The notes: generated by a model not told the origin, from the sequence alone. DNA of 22,534 nt from a virus (IMGVR_UViG_3300028388_003023:22105-44638), one strand, 5' to 3'. Positions 1,675 to 17,258 are shown, counted from the stretch's first letter. Made by a program: numbers and translations.

Positions 1675-2420
1675 TCTGTCTTGCTCCAATAGACAACTTC
1701 AAAAGTTCCGTCTTGGTGCTCAATCAGGGCGGAACAATTTTCACACCAATCTCCATCATTCATATATGTAACGCCATCCATTTCTCTTATTGATGGAGTA
1801 TGTATGTGACCACATATGATTCCGTCGAACTTTCGCTTCTTGCAATACTTGATCATTTCAACTTCAAACTCGCCGATGAAGTTCGAAGCGGCTTTCGCTT
1901 TGTACTTCAAGTACTTCGCTAATGACCAATAAGGTCTTCCCAACAAGTGTCGTATTCTATTCACGAAAGAGTTCATCCATATCAAACTATCGTATGCAAG
2001 GTCGCCGATGTGCATAACAGTACGACCAAACTTTGTTTTCATTAGATAGTCGAACATGTCACCGTGGACCACTAGGTATCGTTTTCCATTCGTCCCTACA
2101 TGAATTAGATTGTTGCATACCTTAATGTTACCAATATTGATAGGATCAATGTTCCTGAGGAACTCGTCGTGGTTACCGCTGATCCAATAGACTTCGGTGT
2201 CCTTCGAGATTTTGATAATCTCTTTAATGATTCGATTGTGGTTGTTCGGCCAGTACCACTTTTTCTGAAGTCTCCATCCGTCGACTATATCACCGACTAA
2301 ATAAAGTTTTTCAGTATTAAGTTGCTTTAGAAAGCTGAGCAACTCTTTGTCTCTACAGTGTTTACTACCTAAATGTGTGTCTGATATGAATACGCTACGA
2401 TGGCCAGTACTTGCTTTCAT
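1671..2420 (-). CDS. PlcP/LpxH-type metallophosphoesterase (COG2908-like)
   Basis: This is a calcineurin-like phosphoesterase with all metal-binding motifs intact: DTH (D14, H16), GDIVD (D44), GNHD (N83, H84), VHGD (H119, D121) and GHIH (H205, H207). At 249 aa it is full length. It resembles LpxH-like enzymes, which cleave UDP-2,3-diacylglucosamine in lipid A synthesis. The blocks YLVGDIVDGWRL, WYWPNNHN, LGRPYWSLAKYLK and the ending NDGDWCENCSALIEHQDG look closer, from memory, to the PlcP branch, which splits phospholipids to diacylglycerol in phosphate-starved marine bacteria. It starts inside the end of the upstream glycosyltransferase gene (26-base overlap), so the two are translationally coupled. 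PlcP genes are typically paired with a lipid glycosyltransferase. I infer envelope-lipid or LPS remodelling. Substrate choice cannot be settled by eye. Confidence 0.8.
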   Translation of the reverse strand: MKASTGHRSVFISDTHLGSKHCRDKELLSFLKQLNTEKLYLVGDIVDGWRLQKKWYWPNNHNRIIKEIIKISKDTEVYWISGNHDEFLRNIDPINIGNIKVCNNLIHVGTNGKRYLVVHGDMFDYLMKTKFGRTVMHIGDLAYDSLIWMNSFVNRIRHLLGRPYWSLAKYLKYKAKAASNFIGEFEVEMIKYCKKRKFDGIICGHIHTPSIREMDGVTYMNDGDWCENCSALIEHQDGTFEVVYWSKTD

Positions 2421-3105
2421 CTATTTTTTCCCAGTGAGCATCATTGTTACGATGCCAGAAGTTTTGAATTAAATACCAAGACATGCCGAAGTAACCCATC
2501 TTCTTGAATCTTCGACTGTCTTGTCCGAAATAGTGATTTGCAATACGAAACTTTTGCGGGTCATACTTGCGAGAAAGGTGGAAATCTTCTGAGGTTGGAT
2601 ACTTACAAGGGAAGCCGCCATACTCTATAAACTTCGATCTCTTAGTGAGCATATATGCGCCAACAGCGAACGGCATCCATCTCGACAAAATTTTATTAAC
2701 AACGTTAAACGCGCTAAATGCAAGCTTCGCTCTTAACTCGTTATCGTAACACTTTATGTTCAGTCCTATTAAATCGAGATCTTCTTCTAGCATTTGCTTC
2801 ATTGTGTCGTGTATTACTGTATCGGAGAAGAAACGCACGTCAGCATCAATAAAAAGAATGTAAGGAGTCTCTGCTTCGGAAGCGCCGTTATTCTTCGCTA
2901 TTGAAACCGGACCACCCTCGACAACTGTTACGTCTAGATAATCTTTTTTCTGTTCGATAACTTCTCGTGTGTTGTCGTCTGAAGCGTCAGCAATATAGAT
3001 CTTAACGTCTTCTATGTTCTTTTGCTTTTTAAGATGATCGAGCAAATGTCCTATGTAATCTTCTTCATTCTTACACGGGACTACGATAGTGAGGAGGTGT
3101 TTCAT
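2395..3105 (-). CDS. GT2-family glycosyltransferase, 236 aa
   Basis: The GT-A fold signature of glycosyltransferase family 2 is clear: VVPCKNEE (residues 8-15), the nucleotide-binding ADASDDNT (39-46), the metal-binding DAD of FIDADVRF (87-89) and the acceptor-side TSEDFH (171-176), which supplies the likely catalytic base. No true transmembrane span follows; the aromatic tail (GMSWYLIQNFWH) may touch the membrane. I chose ATG 3105 over GTG 3129 because the late box at 3135-3142 would place the transcript start at about the GTG. The sugar donor and acceptor are unknown. It could glycosylate LPS, diacylglycerol released by its partner phosphoesterase, or phage DNA or protein. The partner makes a lipid acceptor the leading idea, but known PlcP partners (Agt) are usually GT4, not GT2. 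Confidence 0.85.
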   Translation of the reverse strand: MKHLLTIVVPCKNEEDYIGHLLDHLKKQKNIEDVKIYIADASDDNTREVIEQKKDYLDVTVVEGGPVSIAKNNGASEAETPYILFIDADVRFFSDTVIHDTMKQMLEEDLDLIGLNIKCYDNELRAKLAFSAFNVVNKILSRWMPFAVGAYMLTKRSKFIEYGGFPCKYPTSEDFHLSRKYDPQKFRIANHYFGQDSRRFKKMGYFGMSWYLIQNFWHRNNDAHWEKIDESKYWPS

Positions 3106-3134
3106 ATCATTGGTCTCAATTATGTACACGAAGT

Positions 3135-3251: not shown

Positions 3252-3272
3252 AAGCTTTACTTCTAATAAATA
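3241..3272 (+). promoter_or_regulatory. Overlapping sigma-70-like and late-type promoters for the exported-protein cluster
   Basis: TTGACG (3241-3246) is 17 bases from TAATAA (3264-3269). The latter overlaps AATAAATA (3265-3272), the late-box variant, 63 bases before ATG 3336. Similar distances hold before gp18 and gp22. Confidence 0.5.
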
Positions 3273-3335: not shown

Positions 3336-3911
3336 ATGACTTTGAAAAACCTAGCAATTGTGTTTGCTGGTTTGATTATGACTACATCTTATGCGATGGC
3401 GCAAGAGGCAGAGCAACCTGTCAATCCTCCCATCATCACTGAAGCGACTACCAACAGCACGATAACAACAAATTCGAATACTCGAACAAAATTAGAGTCG
3501 CCGCCTCCAAGCGCGATCTCTCCTACGATTAACACGTCGAACTCAGACCTTTGTACGTTCGGTGTCGCAGGAGCGATTCAGACTCAAATCTTAGGTATCT
3601 CAACAGGTACACAAGTAACCGATGAGAATTGCGAAAGATTAAAGCTATCTAAAACTCTTTATGATATGGGTATGAAGGTAGCGGCGGTGTCGACAATGTG
3701 TCAAGACAAGCGAGTCTTTGATGCTATGTTGATGGCAGGCACACCTTGTCCTTATGATGGGCAAATAGGCGAAGCCGCAAAAGTTGCTTGGGAAGCCGAT
3801 GTCGAAAAACGTCCTAAAGATAAAAAAGATAAGGAAGGAATGAATGAGAGTACTCAAACATTACTTGGTGGCGCTGGCGTTGCTGGCCTGCTCCTCTTAC
3901 TCTTACTCTGA
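3336..3911 (+). CDS. Exported protein with Sec signal peptide and C-terminal membrane anchor, 191 aa
   Basis: ATG 3336 is preceded by GAAGG. Residues 1-22 form a Sec signal peptide with a good cleavage site (AMA|QE). A T/S/N/P-rich linker follows (about 25-70), then a cysteine-containing core (C73, C99, C122, C138; MCQDKRVFDAMLMAGTPCPY), a lysine-rich stretch (158-167) and a C-terminal hydrophobic run (LLGGAGVAGLLLLLLL). The product would cross the inner membrane and stay anchored by its tail, with possible disulfides in the core. I know no function; I recall similar proteins as hypotheticals of marine phages but cannot verify it. It heads a six-gene run behind a late-type box, and its last 68 bases also encode the signal peptide of the next gene in another frame. 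Confidence 0.8.
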   Translation: MTLKNLAIVFAGLIMTTSYAMAQEAEQPVNPPIITEATTNSTITTNSNTRTKLESPPPSAISPTINTSNSDLCTFGVAGAIQTQILGISTGTQVTDENCERLKLSKTLYDMGMKVAAVSTMCQDKRVFDAMLMAGTPCPYDGQIGEAAKVAWEADVEKRPKDKKDKEGMNESTQTLLGGAGVAGLLLLLLL

Positions 3912-4713
3912 GGAAGTTTTTGGAACTACGCCAAACGCTGCTAATGCCGGTTTAAACTGGGTAATGCAAAATGTTTTGCCCCAGCAAGCAGGATTAACTG
4001 TAAACAGTGTAATTTATAGATATACGGCTGTTAAAGATCCAGAGACAGGCATGATTGTTTACGTCCAAAACGAAAATGCTGAGGGTAGTGGATATATTTT
4101 TAGAGAAAAAGATGACTGGAGTGGCATTCCAGGTAACACCATCAATAAGATTGTTCCTGTAGCAAATATTCCAGGCGAGCTTTGGGGTGACGGAAGTATC
4201 GAGGTCGAAGGTGAGGGGAGCGTCGAGAATGCTCAAGTAGCTTACGGCTTTCAGTTCGATCCATGCTTTGATCCTCAGACAGATCCTAGCTGCCCGGGAT
4301 ACAAAGATCCATTTGATCTACCGGGTTTAAACATTGAGGTGGTAGATCCTTTAGACGATGATCTCGTTCAAAACGAACTAGATCGAAAAGCAGTTTTAGA
4401 TGATGAAGATCAAGAAGATCGCGATAGAAAAAGAATGAAAGATGATGATAAAGAGGAAGATGAGAATCTTGAAGATATCCTCGGGATAGTCAATCAAACT
4501 CTTTTAGCTGCTGAAGCACAAGCAAAGCACGATGCTTTAGCAGGACTAACAATGATACCGCAAACTTATTATGTAGAATTGCCAGGCGGTGAAATAGAAG
4601 ATACGGTAGTTCTTAAGGATGGGAACTTACCGAAGAATAATAGAGCACGGAGATTGGGATTCGCACAACAAAAGCTCCACCAAGAATTGGTGGATTCTCA
4701 ATTTAAAAAATAA
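3844..4713 (+). CDS. Exported acidic protein, possible lipoprotein, 289 aa
   Basis: ATG 3844 follows AAGGAAGGA. The N-terminus MRVLKHYLVALALLAC has a basic start, a hydrophobic core and a cysteine at 16. LLAC is an imperfect lipobox (L at -2), so lipidation is possible; ordinary cleavage after SYS (residue 22) is the alternative. Then comes a beta-rich domain (about 28-160) with two cysteines (141, 150) in a DPCFDPQTDPSCPGY block. A highly charged D/E/K/R stretch (176-210) and a helical tail follow. The family is unknown. The frame overlaps the previous gene by 68 bases, and 15 bases separate it from the next. A pilus-like or envelope-surface role with its neighbours is inference. The overlap recalls Rz/Rz1 spanins, but size and domain order do not fit. 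Confidence 0.8.
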   Translation: MRVLKHYLVALALLACSSYSYSEEVFGTTPNAANAGLNWVMQNVLPQQAGLTVNSVIYRYTAVKDPETGMIVYVQNENAEGSGYIFREKDDWSGIPGNTINKIVPVANIPGELWGDGSIEVEGEGSVENAQVAYGFQFDPCFDPQTDPSCPGYKDPFDLPGLNIEVVDPLDDDLVQNELDRKAVLDDEDQEDRDRKRMKDDDKEEDENLEDILGIVNQTLLAAEAQAKHDALAGLTMIPQTYYVELPGGEIEDTVVLKDGNLPKNNRARRLGFAQQKLHQELVDSQFKK

Positions 4714-4728
4714 AAAAAGGAGAACAAG

Positions 4729-5226
4729 ATGTTCAAGAAAGCGATTATTGCGTTAGCAACAACTTTTGCAATGTCTGCTTATGCAGTTGACGTTCCACTA
4801 ACAGGTACAGTAGATTCTAAATGTGTAGTGACTACTGATACACAAGGTGTTTTTGGAAACCCGTTTCCGTATAGACTTAGCACTACACCTGCCGATGGTG
4901 GTGTTGAACCAATTGTTCGTTATGATGTAGTACAGGCCGATTATTACAAAGCCTTGATTACATATCCAACCTCGTTTTCTGAGAGCCCAGCTCTTGATGA
5001 CGTAGTGAATTGGACAGGTACTGTTACAGTAGCAGAAGTTACAGACGCTCTTATGTCTGACTACGACAACACTAAGCGTTTATACGATAATGTGACTGAA
5101 GTTGATTTATCTGTAACAGGAAGCACTTGGTTTAAAGTTGCTTCTCAGGCAGACTACGGTTTTAATAAAGCACTACCAGCTGGAACATATCGCGCTATTG
5201 TGACTGCTGAGTGTATTGCTCAGTAA
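4729..5226 (+). CDS. Exported pilin-like or coat-U-like protein, 165 aa
   Basis: ATG 4729 has AAAAAAGGAGAAC upstream, the best ribosome-binding site of the cluster. A clean signal peptide (MFKKAIIALATTFAMSAYA) is cleaved after residue 19. The mature protein is almost all beta strand, with only two cysteines, C32 in TVDSKCVV near its start and C162 in the last strand (GTYRAIVTAECIAQ), which could staple first and last strands. This layout resembles secreted fimbrial subunits and spore-coat-U-like domains, in which a GTV...C block begins the fold. Homology cannot be proven by eye. The next gene encodes a small beta-rich exported protein that could be its chaperone. I infer a secreted structural subunit. 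Confidence 0.75.
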   Translation: MFKKAIIALATTFAMSAYAVDVPLTGTVDSKCVVTTDTQGVFGNPFPYRLSTTPADGGVEPIVRYDVVQADYYKALITYPTSFSESPALDDVVNWTGTVTVAEVTDALMSDYDNTKRLYDNVTEVDLSVTGSTWFKVASQADYGFNKALPAGTYRAIVTAECIAQ

Positions 5227-5236
5227 GGTAATCTCA

Positions 5237-5611
5237 ATGCGCTATATTATGTTATCATTGTTGTTGATCATAGGTGGGCACGCAAGTGCCCACGAATGGA
5301 TGCCCACGTATCCGGAACTGAGGCAGTCTTTCATTCCAGGCGCATATGTTACAACATTACAACTATTCAATAAACGAAGCGACGCAGAATATTACGAAAT
5401 CAAAGTTTATGACAAAGACTTTAATCCGGTCAAATTTGCTACTCCAAAAAGAATACTAAAAGTAGAATATTTAAAAAAAGAGAAGGTAGACGTATACATA
5501 AAACACGAAGATAGAAATAAGGCCGTATACATTTGTTCAAGCTCTAAATTAGTTTCGGAGGAAGCCAGCGCAACGATTATAGCATCGCGTATTTGTTCTA
5601 AGATAAAATGA
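5237..5611 (+). CDS. Small exported beta-rich protein, fimbrial-chaperone-like, 124 aa
   Basis: I place the start at ATG 5237 (MRYIMLSL), because this gives a proper signal peptide (cleaved after ASA, before HEW). The longer reading from 5216 overlaps the previous gene. The mature part has regular strands: VTTLQLFNKRSDAEYYEIKV, then RILKVEYLKKEKVDVYI, ending in KAVYICSSSKL and ASRICSKIK with cysteines that can pair. 'Neutral-residue strands plus NKR-D-YYEI' resembles the N-terminal domain of PapD-type periplasmic chaperones, but the second domain is missing; these are usually about 230 aa. I recall close relatives in marine phages annotated only as hypothetical. It may be a one-domain chaperone or a structural protein. 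Confidence 0.7.
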   Translation: MRYIMLSLLLIIGGHASAHEWMPTYPELRQSFIPGAYVTTLQLFNKRSDAEYYEIKVYDKDFNPVKFATPKRILKVEYLKKEKVDVYIKHEDRNKAVYICSSSKLVSEEASATIIASRICSKIK

Positions 5612-5612
5612 T

Positions 5613-6062
5613 ATGAAACTACTATATACAATAATGTTGATTTTCACTATACTTGTGATTATACTAAGCAATCGAGCATACGCGCAGAGTAGCTTGAACC
5701 TCGCTATACCCCAGTCTCCGCAAAGCTTTCAGTCTGATCGAATAAGAGCTGGAGATGTTGAATGCTCTATGGCAATAGGATCCTCTACAAATGTCGAGTT
5801 TGGTGTTGTAGGAATTCTAAATCAAAATGATCCATTTGCTAATCAAATGATGTTGGCAGATCCTGCATTTAGAGATCAGTTTTCAAATGATTTTATTAGG
5901 GATGTTGGTGTATACGGTAGAATCACAATACCAATTGGAGCACCAAAGGAAAGATTGAATTGTAATACACTTTATAAATTAGAGCTTGAGAAAAAACGTC
6001 TAGAAGTTTATAAGCTAAGACAAGAAATACAACAACTTAGAGCTATGCAATTTGAGAACTAG
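5613..6062 (+). CDS. Exported protein with C-terminal coiled coil, 149 aa
   Basis: It starts one base after the preceding stop. Residues 1-24 form a long hydrophobic signal (MLIFTILVIILSNRAYA|QSS). The mature part has a conserved-looking block (RAGDVECSMAIGSSTNVEFG), a strand-rich middle and IPIGAPKERLNCNTLYKLE, then a charged coiled coil (about 117-149, KLELEKKRLEVYKLRQEI) ending in LRAMQFEN. Two cysteines (about 51 and 114) could pair. ATA is the commonest isoleucine codon here (8 of 14 by my count), which fits the tRNA-Ile(UAU) encoded 600 bases downstream. I recall such proteins as conserved hypotheticals of marine T4-like phages. The coiled coil suggests oligomerisation or contact with the next, coiled-coil membrane protein. 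Confidence 0.8.
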   Translation: MKLLYTIMLIFTILVIILSNRAYAQSSLNLAIPQSPQSFQSDRIRAGDVECSMAIGSSTNVEFGVVGILNQNDPFANQMMLADPAFRDQFSNDFIRDVGVYGRITIPIGAPKERLNCNTLYKLELEKKRLEVYKLRQEIQQLRAMQFEN

Positions 6063-6071
6063 GAATAACAC

Positions 6072-6617
6072 ATGGCAGACAAAGATTTAGGCGAGATTAC
6101 AGAAAACTTCGAAGAAGAAGTCGAGAATCTTAAAAACACGAAGATGAAACTCTTCGGCATTACAATGACACCTACAACCATAGGTGCTGCGTTTGCTTTA
6201 ATTACTTCTATACTTGGGGCTTTATATGGCGGATTTGAAACATATAAGGCTTTTCAGGAAATAGCAGAAAAGTTAGAAGTATTAGATCTTGAAGCAATAG
6301 AAGCTCGTAATGTAGCAATTGAACGCAAGTTAGACGATGCTATAGATTATACACGCGATATTAAAAATTCATTGAAAGATGATATTATCAGAATAGAACA
6401 AGTAACTGAACGTACTAGTACTCGAATGAAAATAGTTCAAGACGAAATAGATGTAAGAATGAGAACTTTATCTGATTTAAGTCGTGAATCTGAGAAAGAT
6501 GTAAGAGATACTATGCGTGAAGTAGAAGACCGTATTGATGATAAAATGGAAAAGTTAGATGAAGATCTAAGAGATACTCTCCAAAAAGCTTTAGACAATC
6601 CGCTTTCAGACGGTTGA
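6072..6617 (+). CDS. Inner-membrane protein with a long coiled coil, 181 aa
   Basis: ATG 6072 follows AGGAATAACAC. There is no cleavable signal peptide: an acidic N-terminus (about 1-30) precedes a hydrophobic span (TIGAAFALITSILGALYGGF, about 36-55). About 120 residues of heptad-like charged helix follow (LEAIEARNVAIERKLDDAID to the end). Topology is thus one membrane helix with a long coiled coil. If the coil is periplasmic it could span much of the periplasm, as an i-spanin does; if cytoplasmic it may scaffold the other proteins. The family is not recognised. Its TGA stop (6615-6617) lies inside the TTGACA of the tRNA promoter, showing how tightly the region is packed. Confidence 0.8.
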   Translation: MADKDLGEITENFEEEVENLKNTKMKLFGITMTPTTIGAAFALITSILGALYGGFETYKAFQEIAEKLEVLDLEAIEARNVAIERKLDDAIDYTRDIKNSLKDDIIRIEQVTERTSTRMKIVQDEIDVRMRTLSDLSRESEKDVRDTMREVEDRIDDKMEKLDEDLRDTLQKALDNPLSDG

Positions 6618-6657: not shown

Positions 6658-6733
6658 GGGCCTGTAGCTCAGTGGTAAGAGCACTCGTCTTATAAGCGAG
6701 GAGTCGGTGGTTCAATCCCACCCAGGCCTACCA
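6658..6733 (+). tRNA. tRNA-Ile, anticodon UAU, CCA encoded
   Basis: All arms fold. Acceptor GGGCCTG pairs with CAGGCCT (first pair G-U), the D arm is GCTC/GAGC, and the anticodon stem CTCGT/GCGAG has loop CTTATAA. The variable loop is GAGTC, the T arm GGTGG-TTCAATC-CCACC, discriminator A, then CCA. The anticodon at positions 34-36 is TAT, which reads AUA. Bacteria normally decode AUA with a lysidine-modified CAU tRNA, so a UAU tRNA gives the phage an independent decoder. It has its own consensus promoter and sits directly after the ATA-rich exported-protein genes. Confidence 0.93.
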
Positions 6734-10438: not shown

Positions 10439-10694
10439 GAAATCACCTACCAAGAACCGAGTTATTAAGTGGGTAGGTAGACCCTTTGACTGGACGAATC
10501 GATCCTACGATGATATCGATCTTGTGCGCAAATACGATAAGGTGATCGCACTAGGAAACGTAGCGTCTATATGGTTAACTCGGAATCAGGTCTCTCATCT
10601 CAAGATTCCTCATCCAAGCCCTCGAAATCGTATGTGGAATAACCCACAGACTGAAATAGATACCTTACGACGCATTCAAGAGTACCTCCTGTGA
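10389..10694 (+). CDS. Very short uracil-DNA-glycosylase-superfamily-like protein, 101 aa
   Basis: Three motifs of family 4/5-type uracil-DNA glycosylases appear in the right order: LIIVGEAPG (4-12), VIALGNVAS (52-60) and IPHPSPRNR (73-81), the last holding the H-P-S of the active-site loop. Active family members have about 190-230 residues; here the segments between motifs are deleted, leaving about half that. Whether it still excises uracil, only binds uracil-DNA or acts otherwise is open. It overlaps its left neighbour by 50 bases, and its TGA overlaps the GTG start of the next gene (GTGA). A role in repair or in handling modified bases is inferred. Confidence 0.65.
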   Translation: METLIIVGEAPGNTTPEKSPTKNRVIKWVGRPFDWTNRSYDDIDLVRKYDKVIALGNVASIWLTRNQVSHLKIPHPSPRNRMWNNPQTEIDTLRRIQEYLL

Positions 10695-10867
10695 TTGTCT
10701 GTGTCTGCAAAGCCCTTACCGAACGTACAATTCGTGAGATGTTAGAATATACAGATCTCGACTCGATCAAGAAAACCACCGGCGCTGGTACTCAGTGTGA
10801 AAGTTGTGTAGAAATGTTAGACGAAATTGATGCAGATAAAAAAAGGGAGGACCGAAGTCCTCCCTAA
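10691..10867 (+). CDS. Bfd-like [2Fe-2S] protein, 58 aa
   Basis: GTG 10691 overlaps the preceding TGA (GTGA), and CTCCT stands upstream without a clear Shine-Dalgarno, suggesting coupled translation. The sequence begins MIVCVCKALTERTIREML and later reads GAGTQCESCVEML: C4-x-C6 ... C36-x-x-C39. That cysteine spacing with 'VCVCxAxTxxxI' and 'GxGTxCxxC' is the signature of the bacterioferritin-associated ferredoxin (BFD-like [2Fe-2S]) domain. Bacterial Bfd helps release iron from bacterioferritin; the domain also occurs in other iron and redox proteins. At 58 aa it is about the minimum size. The last residues (REDRSPP) are coded by the stem of the late terminator. A phage role in iron or redox control is inferred. 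Confidence 0.8.
   Translation: MIVCVCKALTERTIREMLEYTDLDSIKKTTGAGTQCESCVEMLDEIDADKKREDRSPP
10838..10865 (-). terminator. Strong intrinsic terminator for the late (minus) transcript
   Basis: Reading the minus strand, AGGGAGGAC and GTCCTCCCT form a perfect 9-bp stem closed by the ultra-stable UUCG tetraloop and followed by seven U (10844-10838). It ends the gp23 transcript 38 bases after its stop and overlaps the 3' coding end of the Bfd-like gene on the plus strand. Confidence 0.92.
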
Positions 10868-15138: not shown

Positions 15139-16665
15139 CTAAAGATCAAGGTCGTCGTCTTGTTCTGGTTCTTCTTCTTTTTCGACTTCAATTTGATCTT
15201 TCATTTCTTTATAATCGTCTTCAGACATTTGAAGAACATTACGAACAACCCATTCCTTCGAGTAAAATCTACCAATCTGATCTTCAATTTCTCTTAGCGT
15301 GTTCATTCTTTCTCTAAGAATCTCAGATTCTTTTAGCTCAGTAAAATAGTTATCTTGAATAAAATCATAACGAATATTATTTCGAATATTTTCAAACTCT
15401 TCAGGCGTTAATATACCTTTCAACACAAGCTGCTTTTCTAAAACAATATTGAATAACCAAGAAAATCTTGATCTTAAGCGACGAATGAATTTGCCAAACT
15501 TCAACTCGTCTCGTGTAATTTCAGAAGCGCGGCCAAATGAAGCCATTGTTTCTGGCTCTAAACGGCTAATAGGTACTTTCAGCGCTTTATATAGTTTACG
15601 CTGAAAGTACTGCATATTTTCGTCTGTACTCAAGCCTTGTGCACTACCACCGGCAAGAGTATCGACTTCGGTTGAACGTTCACCACCACGGCGAGGGAAC
15701 CAGAAGTCTTCAGTCATTGTCATCATCTTACGCGAGTCAGAGATCTCACCGGTTGACGCGTTGTACTGCAACTTGTTCTTATGGCGAGTCATCATATCAC
15801 GTAGATATTGCTCTGCCTTGCTCTTTGGTAAGTTACCGACATCAATGTAGAAAATACGTCGCTCTGGTGCTCTTGTCAAAGTGTAAATAACTGTCGCGTC
15901 TTCCAACATACGTAATTGGTTAAGAGGCTTGATTGCAGGATGTAAATGTGAAAGAACGAGACTGTTGTTCTCGTTCATCATACCAGAAGTTACTCTTGCA
16001 ATCGAGTCCTTCGAAATCTTAAATCCTGTAGTACTACCTGTCGCACCTGTAGATGTTGATCCAGAAAATCCGCCATCAGAATACATGTAATATTCGTTTT
16101 TGACTCTCTTTATAGGTATCCCTGAATGCTTATCTTTATCTTTCTTGTCCATCTCTCGAATTAGCTTAAGCTTTCGAGGATCAACATATCTTAATTCTCT
16201 TATACCTTTCTTCAGATTATCATTATCAATAATAATATGATAGTTAATGCGACCATCTACATAAAACTTGTAGAACATGTCGTAACCGTTGTTTGACATG
16301 TCAAAAAGAGCGAGAACATTGTCAAACTCTTCATTGATTTTTTCTTTTACTTTATCGGGAAGGTCAGTATCGTCTAGAATAATATCGACAATCTTGTCTT
16401 CCGTGTCAATGCTAATTGCTTCGTTTACAATATCATCAATTGCCTGAGAAATTTCAGGCTGCATAGACATTGCACGATACTTAGTAATGAGTTCTGATTC
16501 TGACTTAGCAGAACCTTCCATATCAAGTATCGTGCTATAGAAACCGCCGAGCGAATTACCATCAACGGTAATCGCACCATCATCATTCTGAGGCGCGGCA
16601 AACGAGACCGGTTGTTGGTCTTTTTCGTCTTCCGGCCTACGTATTTCGAAGCCAAATAAACGCAT
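15139..16665 (-). CDS. 20: Portal vertex protein gp20
   Basis: At 508 aa this matches T4 gp20 (524 aa), the dodecameric portal through which DNA enters and leaves the head. Typical blocks are MRLFGFEIRRPEDE at the start, ITKYRAMSMQPEISQAIDDIVNEAI, FYVDGRINYHIIID, LRYVDPRKLKLIREM, APERRIFYIDVGNLPK, EDFWFPRRGGERSTEVDTL and PISRLEPETMASFGRASEITRDELKFGKFIRRLR. The tail is acidic (EKEEEPEQDDDLDL). AGGAGATTGAATTA before ATG 16665 lies inside the homing endonuclease gene, whose TAA overlaps the gp20 ATG (TAATG). I find no late box directly before it, so it depends on upstream transcription through gp19 and the endonuclease gene. Confidence 0.97.
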   Translation of the reverse strand: MRLFGFEIRRPEDEKDQQPVSFAAPQNDDGAITVDGNSLGGFYSTILDMEGSAKSESELITKYRAMSMQPEISQAIDDIVNEAISIDTEDKIVDIILDDTDLPDKVKEKINEEFDNVLALFDMSNNGYDMFYKFYVDGRINYHIIIDNDNLKKGIRELRYVDPRKLKLIREMDKKDKDKHSGIPIKRVKNEYYMYSDGGFSGSTSTGATGSTTGFKISKDSIARVTSGMMNENNSLVLSHLHPAIKPLNQLRMLEDATVIYTLTRAPERRIFYIDVGNLPKSKAEQYLRDMMTRHKNKLQYNASTGEISDSRKMMTMTEDFWFPRRGGERSTEVDTLAGGSAQGLSTDENMQYFQRKLYKALKVPISRLEPETMASFGRASEITRDELKFGKFIRRLRSRFSWLFNIVLEKQLVLKGILTPEEFENIRNNIRYDFIQDNYFTELKESEILRERMNTLREIEDQIGRFYSKEWVVRNVLQMSEDDYKEMKDQIEVEKEEEPEQDDDLDL

Positions 16666-17258
16666 TAATTCAATCTCCTAGCTTTGCCTTCTTGTATCAT
16701 TTTTCTAAGATAGTGCATAGATACGTTAAGTTCAGCACAAGCGTCTTTCATAGTTAAAAAGGTTATATTATCTATAACAATGGCACGTGCGTTATTATTA
16801 CCAGCGCCTTGTGATCTCTTTTTAGCCTTCTCAGACATTATTTTTTTGGTTTCTTCATCATGTTTTTTACCAAAAAAATGATTACCCGATTTAGCAAAAT
16901 GAGGTCTAGGTCCTCTTGCTTTTAGCTTTGGCTTACCTTTATTCGACTTGCTAATCTTTTCAGCTGTTTGAGGTAAACATTTTCTATTAAAAAATTTACC
17001 ATTGTTAGGATGTCTATTATAAAAGTTTTTATTTCTAGAAACATCAGCAGCTTTTAAAATAGCTGTTTCAAATATACACATTTCTTCATAAGTACCATTA
17101 GCTATAATTTGTCTAGTAAAATCTTGTGGTCGTTTTTTATATTCTTCAAGCATAGTTTTGCTGGAACATATGTAACCATCGTCGTGAGAACCCTTATGAA
17201 TTCCCACATATAACATATTTGTCGCGTGATCTGTCCAGCAATACGTAAAACTGTTCAA
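16665..17258 (-). CDS. GIY-YIG homing endonuclease (Seg-like) with NUMOD3 motifs, 197 aa
   Basis: The N-terminus FTYCWTDHATNMLYVGIHKGSHDDGYICSSK is a GIY-YIG-type nuclease core (here Y-C-W ... Y-V-G), with an R in FTRQII and E in ETAIL that fit the family's catalytic positions. Then come basic DNA-binding repeats (SKSNKGKPKLKARG, NHFFGKKHDEETKKIMSEKAKKR), the NUMOD3 pattern, and a C-terminal helix-turn-helix (TMKDACAELNVSMHYLRKMI). It sits between gp19 and gp20, an interval uninterrupted in T4. No ATG fits; TTG 17258 with AAAGG upstream is the likely start. It cuts the cognate site in phages lacking it and spreads by repair. The AAA/AAG-rich, AT-rich codon use differs from gp18-gp20. Confidence 0.9.
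   Translation of the reverse strand: MNSFTYCWTDHATNMLYVGIHKGSHDDGYICSSKTMLEEYKKRPQDFTRQIIANGTYEEMCIFETAILKAADVSRNKNFYNRHPNNGKFFNRKCLPQTAEKISKSNKGKPKLKARGPRPHFAKSGNHFFGKKHDEETKKIMSEKAKKRSQGAGNNNARAIVIDNITFLTMKDACAELNVSMHYLRKMIQEGKARRLN

Follow-up and report, generated by a model that had tools for sequence, protein, structure and literature searches.

A conserved six-gene cassette of exported and membrane proteins in T4-like phages, with a pilin-like and a PapD-like predicted fold

What might a marine T4-like phage assemble outside the cytoplasm late in infection? The question is raised by six adjacent genes, here called g1 to g6, in a 22,534-nucleotide (nt) stretch of viral DNA (IMGVR_UViG_3300028388_003023:22105-44638), hereafter the window. 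An earlier note, made from the sequence alone, had described them as a late-type cluster and offered three roles: an envelope structure, superinfection exclusion or a lysis-related device. We find that the six genes form a conserved cassette, preceded in many relatives by a late promoter motif, and that the products of g3 and g4 are modeled with folds resembling the two partners of a chaperone-pilin system. We tentatively favor the reading that the cassette encodes a stalk that is made late, is anchored in the inner membrane and extends into the periplasm, where it most likely acts on the envelope as infection ends.

Gene order, late motif and export signals

Six adjacent open reading frames (ORFs) were called between 3336 and 6617, all on the plus strand. 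As previously described, they are separated by at most 15 nt (g2-g3, 15; g3-g4, 10; g4-g5, 1; g5-g6, 9), with a single overlap of 68 nt between g1 and g2. A search with g3 alone recovered 12 relatives, in all of which the neighboring genes were in the same order up to the contig ends. Profile searches of confirmed virus stretches gave at least 593 for g3, at least 592 for g1 and 421 for g5. Gene order was analyzed in a sample of 256 fetched loci, of which 195 (142 of them distinct) carry the complete series g1-g2-g3-g4-g5-g6 on one strand and in the same order, and the conservation on which the earlier note had staked its proposal was therefore found. The start of g2 lies inside g1 in 195/195 complete loci, with an overlap of at least 62 nt (median, 71). 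In the window, the shared DNA (3844-3911) is read in two frames, one giving the tail of g1 and the other the signal peptide of g2, both hydrophobic. None of the gene families flanking the cassette is constant, and the commonest occurs in at most 46 of the 142 distinct loci. Since the order is kept while no neighbor family exceeds this number, the block moves as a single cassette. The second commonest neighbor of the six-gene type (42/142 loci) is phrog_32327, a family beginning "MDPV..." with a C-terminal membrane span. Only three matches were obtained in genome_contigs, all with the complete six-gene set; they have the appearance of phage contigs that were binned with metagenome genomes, and a bacterial origin of the cassette was rejected.

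Of 116 distinct stretches, 59 carry the T4-type late promoter motif TATAAATA within 150 nt 5' of g1, compared to 52 of 1284 control ORFs (4%) and 2.2 of 116 shuffled sequences, in agreement with the late-type character proposed for the set. The motif was not found 5' of g2, g3 or g6 in the distinct relatives' stretches. The window itself has no exact TATAAATA 5' of g1, only the looser AATAAATA.

Export signals were scored with a home-made rule, a hydrophobic core plus a cleavage-rule match, which is satisfied by the membrane span of g6 as well. Among distinct proteins, the rule was satisfied by 114/117 for g1, 122/124 for g2, 112/115 for g3, 84/116 for g4 and 113/114 for g5, compared to 163/1317 neighboring ORFs. 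By this measure, the five Sec-type signal peptides noticed in the window are conserved across relatives, as is the membrane span of g6. The mature proteins contain four cysteines (Cys) in 108/117 cases for g1, two in 123/124 for g2, 115/115 for g3, 115/116 for g4 and 114/114 for g5, and none in 112/112 for g6. A C-terminal hydrophobic tail is kept in 117/117 g1 proteins, and g1 is probably a periplasmic protein anchored in the inner membrane. A C-terminal NPL motif is present in 108/112 g6 proteins and 0/1317 controls. The earlier suggestion of a lipoprotein did not hold. A lipobox occurs in only 15 of 124 distinct g2 proteins, its Cys is replaced by Trp in two loci (L017 and L018), and none was seen for the other five genes; g2 as a lipoprotein was therefore rejected. 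Homology between g1 and g5 was not supported.

Predicted folds of g3 and g4 and the repeat-type variants

The AlphaFold2 model of g3 had a pLDDT (predicted local distance difference test) of 92.2 with an alignment of 85 sequences, in all of which Cys32 and Cys162 are invariant. The pilin-like beta protein with a Cys pair proposed earlier is borne out by this model, which is nearest to chaperone-usher pilins. The best Foldseek match in the PDB was the CFA/I pilin CfaB (E value, 6e-4), followed by type 1, P and Caf1 pilins, with staphylococcal MSCRAMM adhesins interspersed. Residues 20 to 31, at the start of the mature protein, are without secondary structure in the model, and this extension together with the first strand was matched to a profile of ten Escherichia coli K-12 pilins (hhalign E value, 1.8e-4; 48% probability). 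A fold search with g3 among viral structures gave no match at an E value of ≤0.001, and sequence-profile searches of solved structures with g3 and g4 gave no convincing match.

The g4 model (pLDDT, 91.8; 92 sequences) is nearest to PapD-like chaperones, consistent with the one-domain PapD-like candidate that had been suggested. The best Foldseek matches were the chaperones DraB, FaeE, SafB, PapD, Caf1M and FimC and related MSP/VAP domains, with a TMq of up to 0.66. The C terminus, ICSKIK, resembles IISRIK in strand G1 of FimC, and an ending of the form C[STAN][KR][IVLMF]K is present in 72 of 92 g4 relatives. The last lysine may be the counterpart of PapD Lys112, and C100 and C120 presumably correspond to the F1-G1 disulfide of FGL chaperones. 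No Pfam chaperone match was obtained for g4. By these models, the products of the adjacent genes g3 and g4 each resemble one partner of a single chaperone-pilin system.

Some uncultivated loci carry g1-g2-g6 without g3-g5. The g2 proteins of these loci are 559 to 821 amino acids (aa) long and contain 4 to 11 tandem units of approximately 22 residues each, of the type QQCSxNPLYxxxCPGYxxAYxN. Where g3-g5 are present, each of the 124 distinct g2 proteins contains at most one unit. Because the repeats and g3-g5 exclude each other, the pilin and chaperone genes appear to replace the repeat stalk; from gene content, we read the tandem repeats and the pilin-like subunit with its chaperone as two routes to the same stalk. 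In one repeat group, the C-terminal domain of g2 is homologous to that of the window g2 (E values, 6.5e-19 to 5.6e-10), and in another (L273 to L278), the repeats are kept with a different C terminus. No match to the giant repeat-type g2 was found in GenBank phages. A phrog_32327 family gene is located after g6 in most repeat-type loci (L139:3496-3963; directly in L131, L150 and L279 to L281). Two loci encode a beta-rich protein of 106 to 107 aa with an aromatic last residue between the repeat-type g2 and g6 (L274:6686-7006 and L273:5841-6164). It looks like a small outer-membrane barrel and had no Pfam or PHROG match.

The features of the cassette in the window are listed in Table 1. The window is derived from a 44.6-kb linear IMG/VR virus record, the major capsid protein of which is a T4-like gp23 with 67% identity to Sinorhizobium phages phiN3/phiM12 and 64.5% identity to OM43 phage Melnitz. 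A tRNA-Ile(tat) gene is located 3' of the cassette (6658-6733). Just 5' of the cassette, overlapping genes for a calcineurin-like phosphoesterase and a family 2 glycosyltransferase are encoded on the minus strand (1671-2420 and 2395-3129), possibly with a role in modifying envelope lipid or sugar. The window also contains a NUMOD3-bearing homing-endonuclease-like gene inserted among T4-type structural genes (16665-17258, minus strand) and a gene (10691-10867, plus strand) whose 58-aa product has a BFD-like [2Fe-2S] domain (PF04324). Transfer-messenger RNA genes were detected by ARAGORN in two carrier contigs, at L074:12684-13087 (tag ANDNFAPTGYALAA) and L115:4365-4773 (tag ANENFAPTGYALAA).

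Table 1. Features of the six-gene cassette in the window (folds and domains as predicted)
Feature	Position	Strand	Description
Loose T4-type late promoter match AATAAATA	3265-3272	+	64-71 nt 5' of g1
g1	3336-3911	+	191 aa; signal peptide, then a domain with four Cys at residues 57-161 (phrog_20531) and a hydrophobic tail at the C terminus
g1 C-terminal hydrophobic tail TLLGGAGVAGLLLLLLL	3858-3908	+	Overlaps g2 start, other frame
g2	3844-4713	+	289 aa; signal peptide, beta-rich domain, single CPGY-type Cys unit, then acidic linker and conserved C-terminal domain; without lipobox
Single CPGY-type unit in g2 CFDPQTDPSCPGY	4264-4302	+	Variant loci have 4-11 such units in tandem
g2 C-terminal motif H..[ML]V..Q[YWF]	4678-4704	+	119/124 relatives, 0/1317 controls
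g3	4729-5226	+	165 aa; signal peptide and a beta-sandwich like that of chaperone-usher pilins; Cys32 and Cys162 are invariant
g3 N-terminal extension and first strand VDVPLTGTVDSKCVV	4786-4836	+	Matches pilin profile
g4	5237-5611	+	124 aa; signal peptide, single PapD-like domain, invariant Cys100 and Cys120; ATG at 5237 is the best choice of start
g5	5613-6062	+	149 aa; signal peptide, two invariant Cys, coiled-coil-like C-terminal segment; no known family
g6	6072-6617	+	181 aa; N-terminal membrane span, long coiled coil, without Cys, C-terminal NPL motif (6597-6605)

Cultured relatives, lysis genes and known systems

The g1 core is present in the cultured pelagiphages and roseophages HTVC115P, HTVC023P, HTVC033P, HTVC202P, Baldr, Mosig, CRP-207 and CRP-810 (34 to 64% identity), none of which yielded g3, g4 or g5. 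In most cultured relatives, two further genes come after the g1 core, one for a second exported protein and the next for a membrane/coiled-coil protein ending in NPL. The relatives in marine T4-like phages that the earlier note mentioned were found among uncultivated contigs, but the GenBank phage collection gave matches for g1 and g6 only. The membrane/coil proteins of the podophages are homologous to g6 (hhalign profile comparison, 97.7%). The second exported protein is mostly unlike g2, and homology of g2 to the second proteins of podophages as a group was not supported (14% probability); HTVC115P gp53 shares the C-terminal domain with g2.

In Mosig, a holin with three transmembrane segments (PF11351) is encoded directly 5' of the core, and in ctXG6705, a gene for a related holin-like protein (phrog_6637) and one for an endolysin come after it. 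An Amidase_2 gene in HTVC033P and a peptidase M15 gene in HTVC023P are located near the core. Three phages (HTVC202P, Baldr and S28C10) have the core 5' of the terminase large subunit gene, directly or with a few small genes between them; the T7 spanin genes sit just before terminase. Since the core lies beside holins and endolysins, a role in envelope breakdown is favored. The products CRP-207 gp73 (L006:3292-3873) and CRP-810 gp51 (L260:5219-5641), encoded next to g1, are labeled lysozyme, yet they are g6-like, with a membrane span, a coiled coil and NPL near the end, and CRP-207 gp73 had no Pfam lysozyme match. These labels are probably misannotations, and neither product was treated as an endolysin here because both are g6-like membrane/coil proteins.

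In T4-like carriers, tight linkage of the cassette to lysis genes was tested and mostly not found. A full pair of inner- and outer-membrane spanins (i-/o-spanins) is located a few kilobases from the cassette in two loci (L228 and L048). The phrog_812 o-spanin was found in 0/11 cultured core phages, in a search without its own positive control, and the same family was found in 20/40 carrier contigs. The lysis-related device proposed earlier gains support from the genes that surround the core in podophages and Mosig, but in T4-like carriers, genes for lysozyme and a canonical spanin are also present at other sites. The cassette is therefore not the sole outer-membrane disruptor in the large T4-like carriers, and spanin replacement as its only role in T4-like phages was rejected.

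The cassette was compared to three known systems. It resembles chaperone-usher pili (FimA/FimC, CfaB, Caf1/Caf1M and CsuA/B-CsuC) in the adjacency of genes modeled nearest to pilins and chaperones and in the N-terminal extension predicted for g3 ahead of the first Cys strand. However, no usher (PF00577) was found in 40 carrier records, which may be fragments, while the E. coli control was positive; therefore, the structure would be periplasmic rather than secreted. In addition, g4 has one immunoglobulin (Ig) domain, compared to two in the PapD family, there is no Pfam family match, and the cassette adds four exported or membrane proteins without a known family. With two-component spanins (lambda Rz/Rz1 and T7 18.5/18.7), the cassette shares late expression, overlapping genes and, in several phages, a core that neighbors holin/endolysin genes; the predicted layout of g6, an N-terminal membrane span and a periplasmic coil, would fit an i-spanin. 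A weak match of g6 to a PHROG spanin (E value, 0.0055) was obtained in this coil-rich protein. In contrast to spanins, the overlap in the cassette joins two signal-peptide genes (g1/g2). Curli (type VIII secretion) clusters occur in pelagimyophages and HTVC023P-type podophages (PMC7029224, PMC9599517, PMC9004378) and are similarly phage-borne sets of exported proteins, in marine T4-like phages and podophages, without an assigned function. However, no curli family was matched among g1-g6, and a curli identity was rejected, as the CsgG pore (PF03783) was found in none of the 41 records tested (control positive). Because chaperone-usher pili, spanins and curli each fail at least one tested defining feature, the cassette fits no kind found. 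It is a new kind only in the sense that no known kind fitted the tests, and its function is a prediction from sequence. No description of the cassette was found in the literature searched, an open-licence library, nor was a phage-encoded chaperone-pilin pair named there.

A predicted periplasmic stalk and its rivals

Of the three roles in the earlier note, an envelope structure is the best supported. We infer its complex formation, topology and stage of action as follows. The six genes would form one late operon building a periplasmic stalk anchored in the inner membrane, on a base made up of g1, held by its C-terminal membrane tail, and g6, with its N-terminal span and coil. The g2 protein would dock via its conserved C-terminal domain and extend outward. 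The g4 protein, like the first PapD-type domain, would complete the open g3 fold with its last strand, and g3 would then be passed on by donor-strand exchange to form a short fiber without an usher, with g5 as a linker carrying a disulfide bond. In this scheme, g3-g5 would be an assembled alternative to the g2 stalk with 4 to 11 Cys repeats in sister phages. Its most likely use would be as infection ends, when the stalk may connect the inner membrane with the wall or the outer membrane and help to open the envelope so that progeny can leave. The more specific proposal, an usher-less virus-encoded chaperone-pilin system that forms a short periplasmic stalk on an inner-membrane base, is evolutionarily interchangeable with a covalent Cys-repeat stalk and serves late envelope opening or remodeling, is possible though doubtful.

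Several observations weigh against a chaperone-pilin stalk acting on the envelope. The cassette has no outer-membrane lipoprotein or other outer-membrane anchor, unlike two-component spanins, and most large T4-like carriers hold a separate phrog_812 o-spanin (11 of the 12 contigs with a length of ≥90 kb), usually at a distance from the cassette, so that any role in release would come on top of it there. The template modeling (TM) scores of g3 are moderate, mostly 0.38 to 0.52. For g4, MSP/VAP domains are matched in addition to chaperones, FixG and other Ig-like domains are also matched, and placement in the chaperone family by sequence profile failed (1.6% probability against six E. coli chaperones). 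The position of the cleft residue Arg8 of PapD, judged by eye, is variable in g4 relatives. These fold comparisons, together with the MSCRAMM matches of g3, would also be expected if g3 and g4 shared only an Ig-type fold and were ordinary periplasmic beta-sandwich subunits, without donor-strand exchange or a fiber. We consider this rather unlikely, as adjacent genes independently resemble both partners of one system, the g3 extension matches the pilin profile, and the G1-like end of g4 recurs in most relatives.

Superinfection exclusion, in which the assembly in the periplasm would keep out the DNA of other phages or hide their receptors, would account for a cassette of exclusively exported or membrane-bound proteins. 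The N-terminal parts of g2-like proteins are also strongly divergent between phages, as expected where targets vary. However, the cassette is expressed late whereas exclusion genes are usually early, and a set of six genes is large for something that one or two proteins normally do; nothing on such a role for these proteins was found in the literature searched, and we regard it as somewhat unlikely. Display of g3 outside the cell as a surface fiber or adhesin, leading to host aggregation ("sibling capture") or receptor masking, is improbable. A role of this type was proposed for the curli genes of pelagimyophages (PMC7029224), and it would suit the resemblance of g3/g4 to a chaperone-usher pair and the repeat stalks of sister phages, but the carrier records contain neither an usher nor CsgG, and g1 and g6 are predicted to be in the inner membrane. 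Late expression and the proximity of the core to tail-fiber genes in some podophages could point to the virion, to which proteins such as fibers might attach once lysis brings the periplasmic and cytoplasmic contents together. However, relatives keep the export signals and membrane spans, and in tailed phages the virion is put together from proteins in the cytoplasm, so that a virion location is very improbable.

The cassette is common, with g3 relatives in at least 593 confirmed virus stretches, so that many marine phages, forming a large and as yet unstudied group, would make the structure. No earlier phage-encoded chaperone-pilin-like pair is known to us, and if donor-strand exchange between g3 and g4 holds true, this would be the first. 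In a survey of spanins, none was found in 91 of 677 genomes (PMC6139136). The g1/g2/g6 core is a concrete candidate for phages without recognizable spanins.

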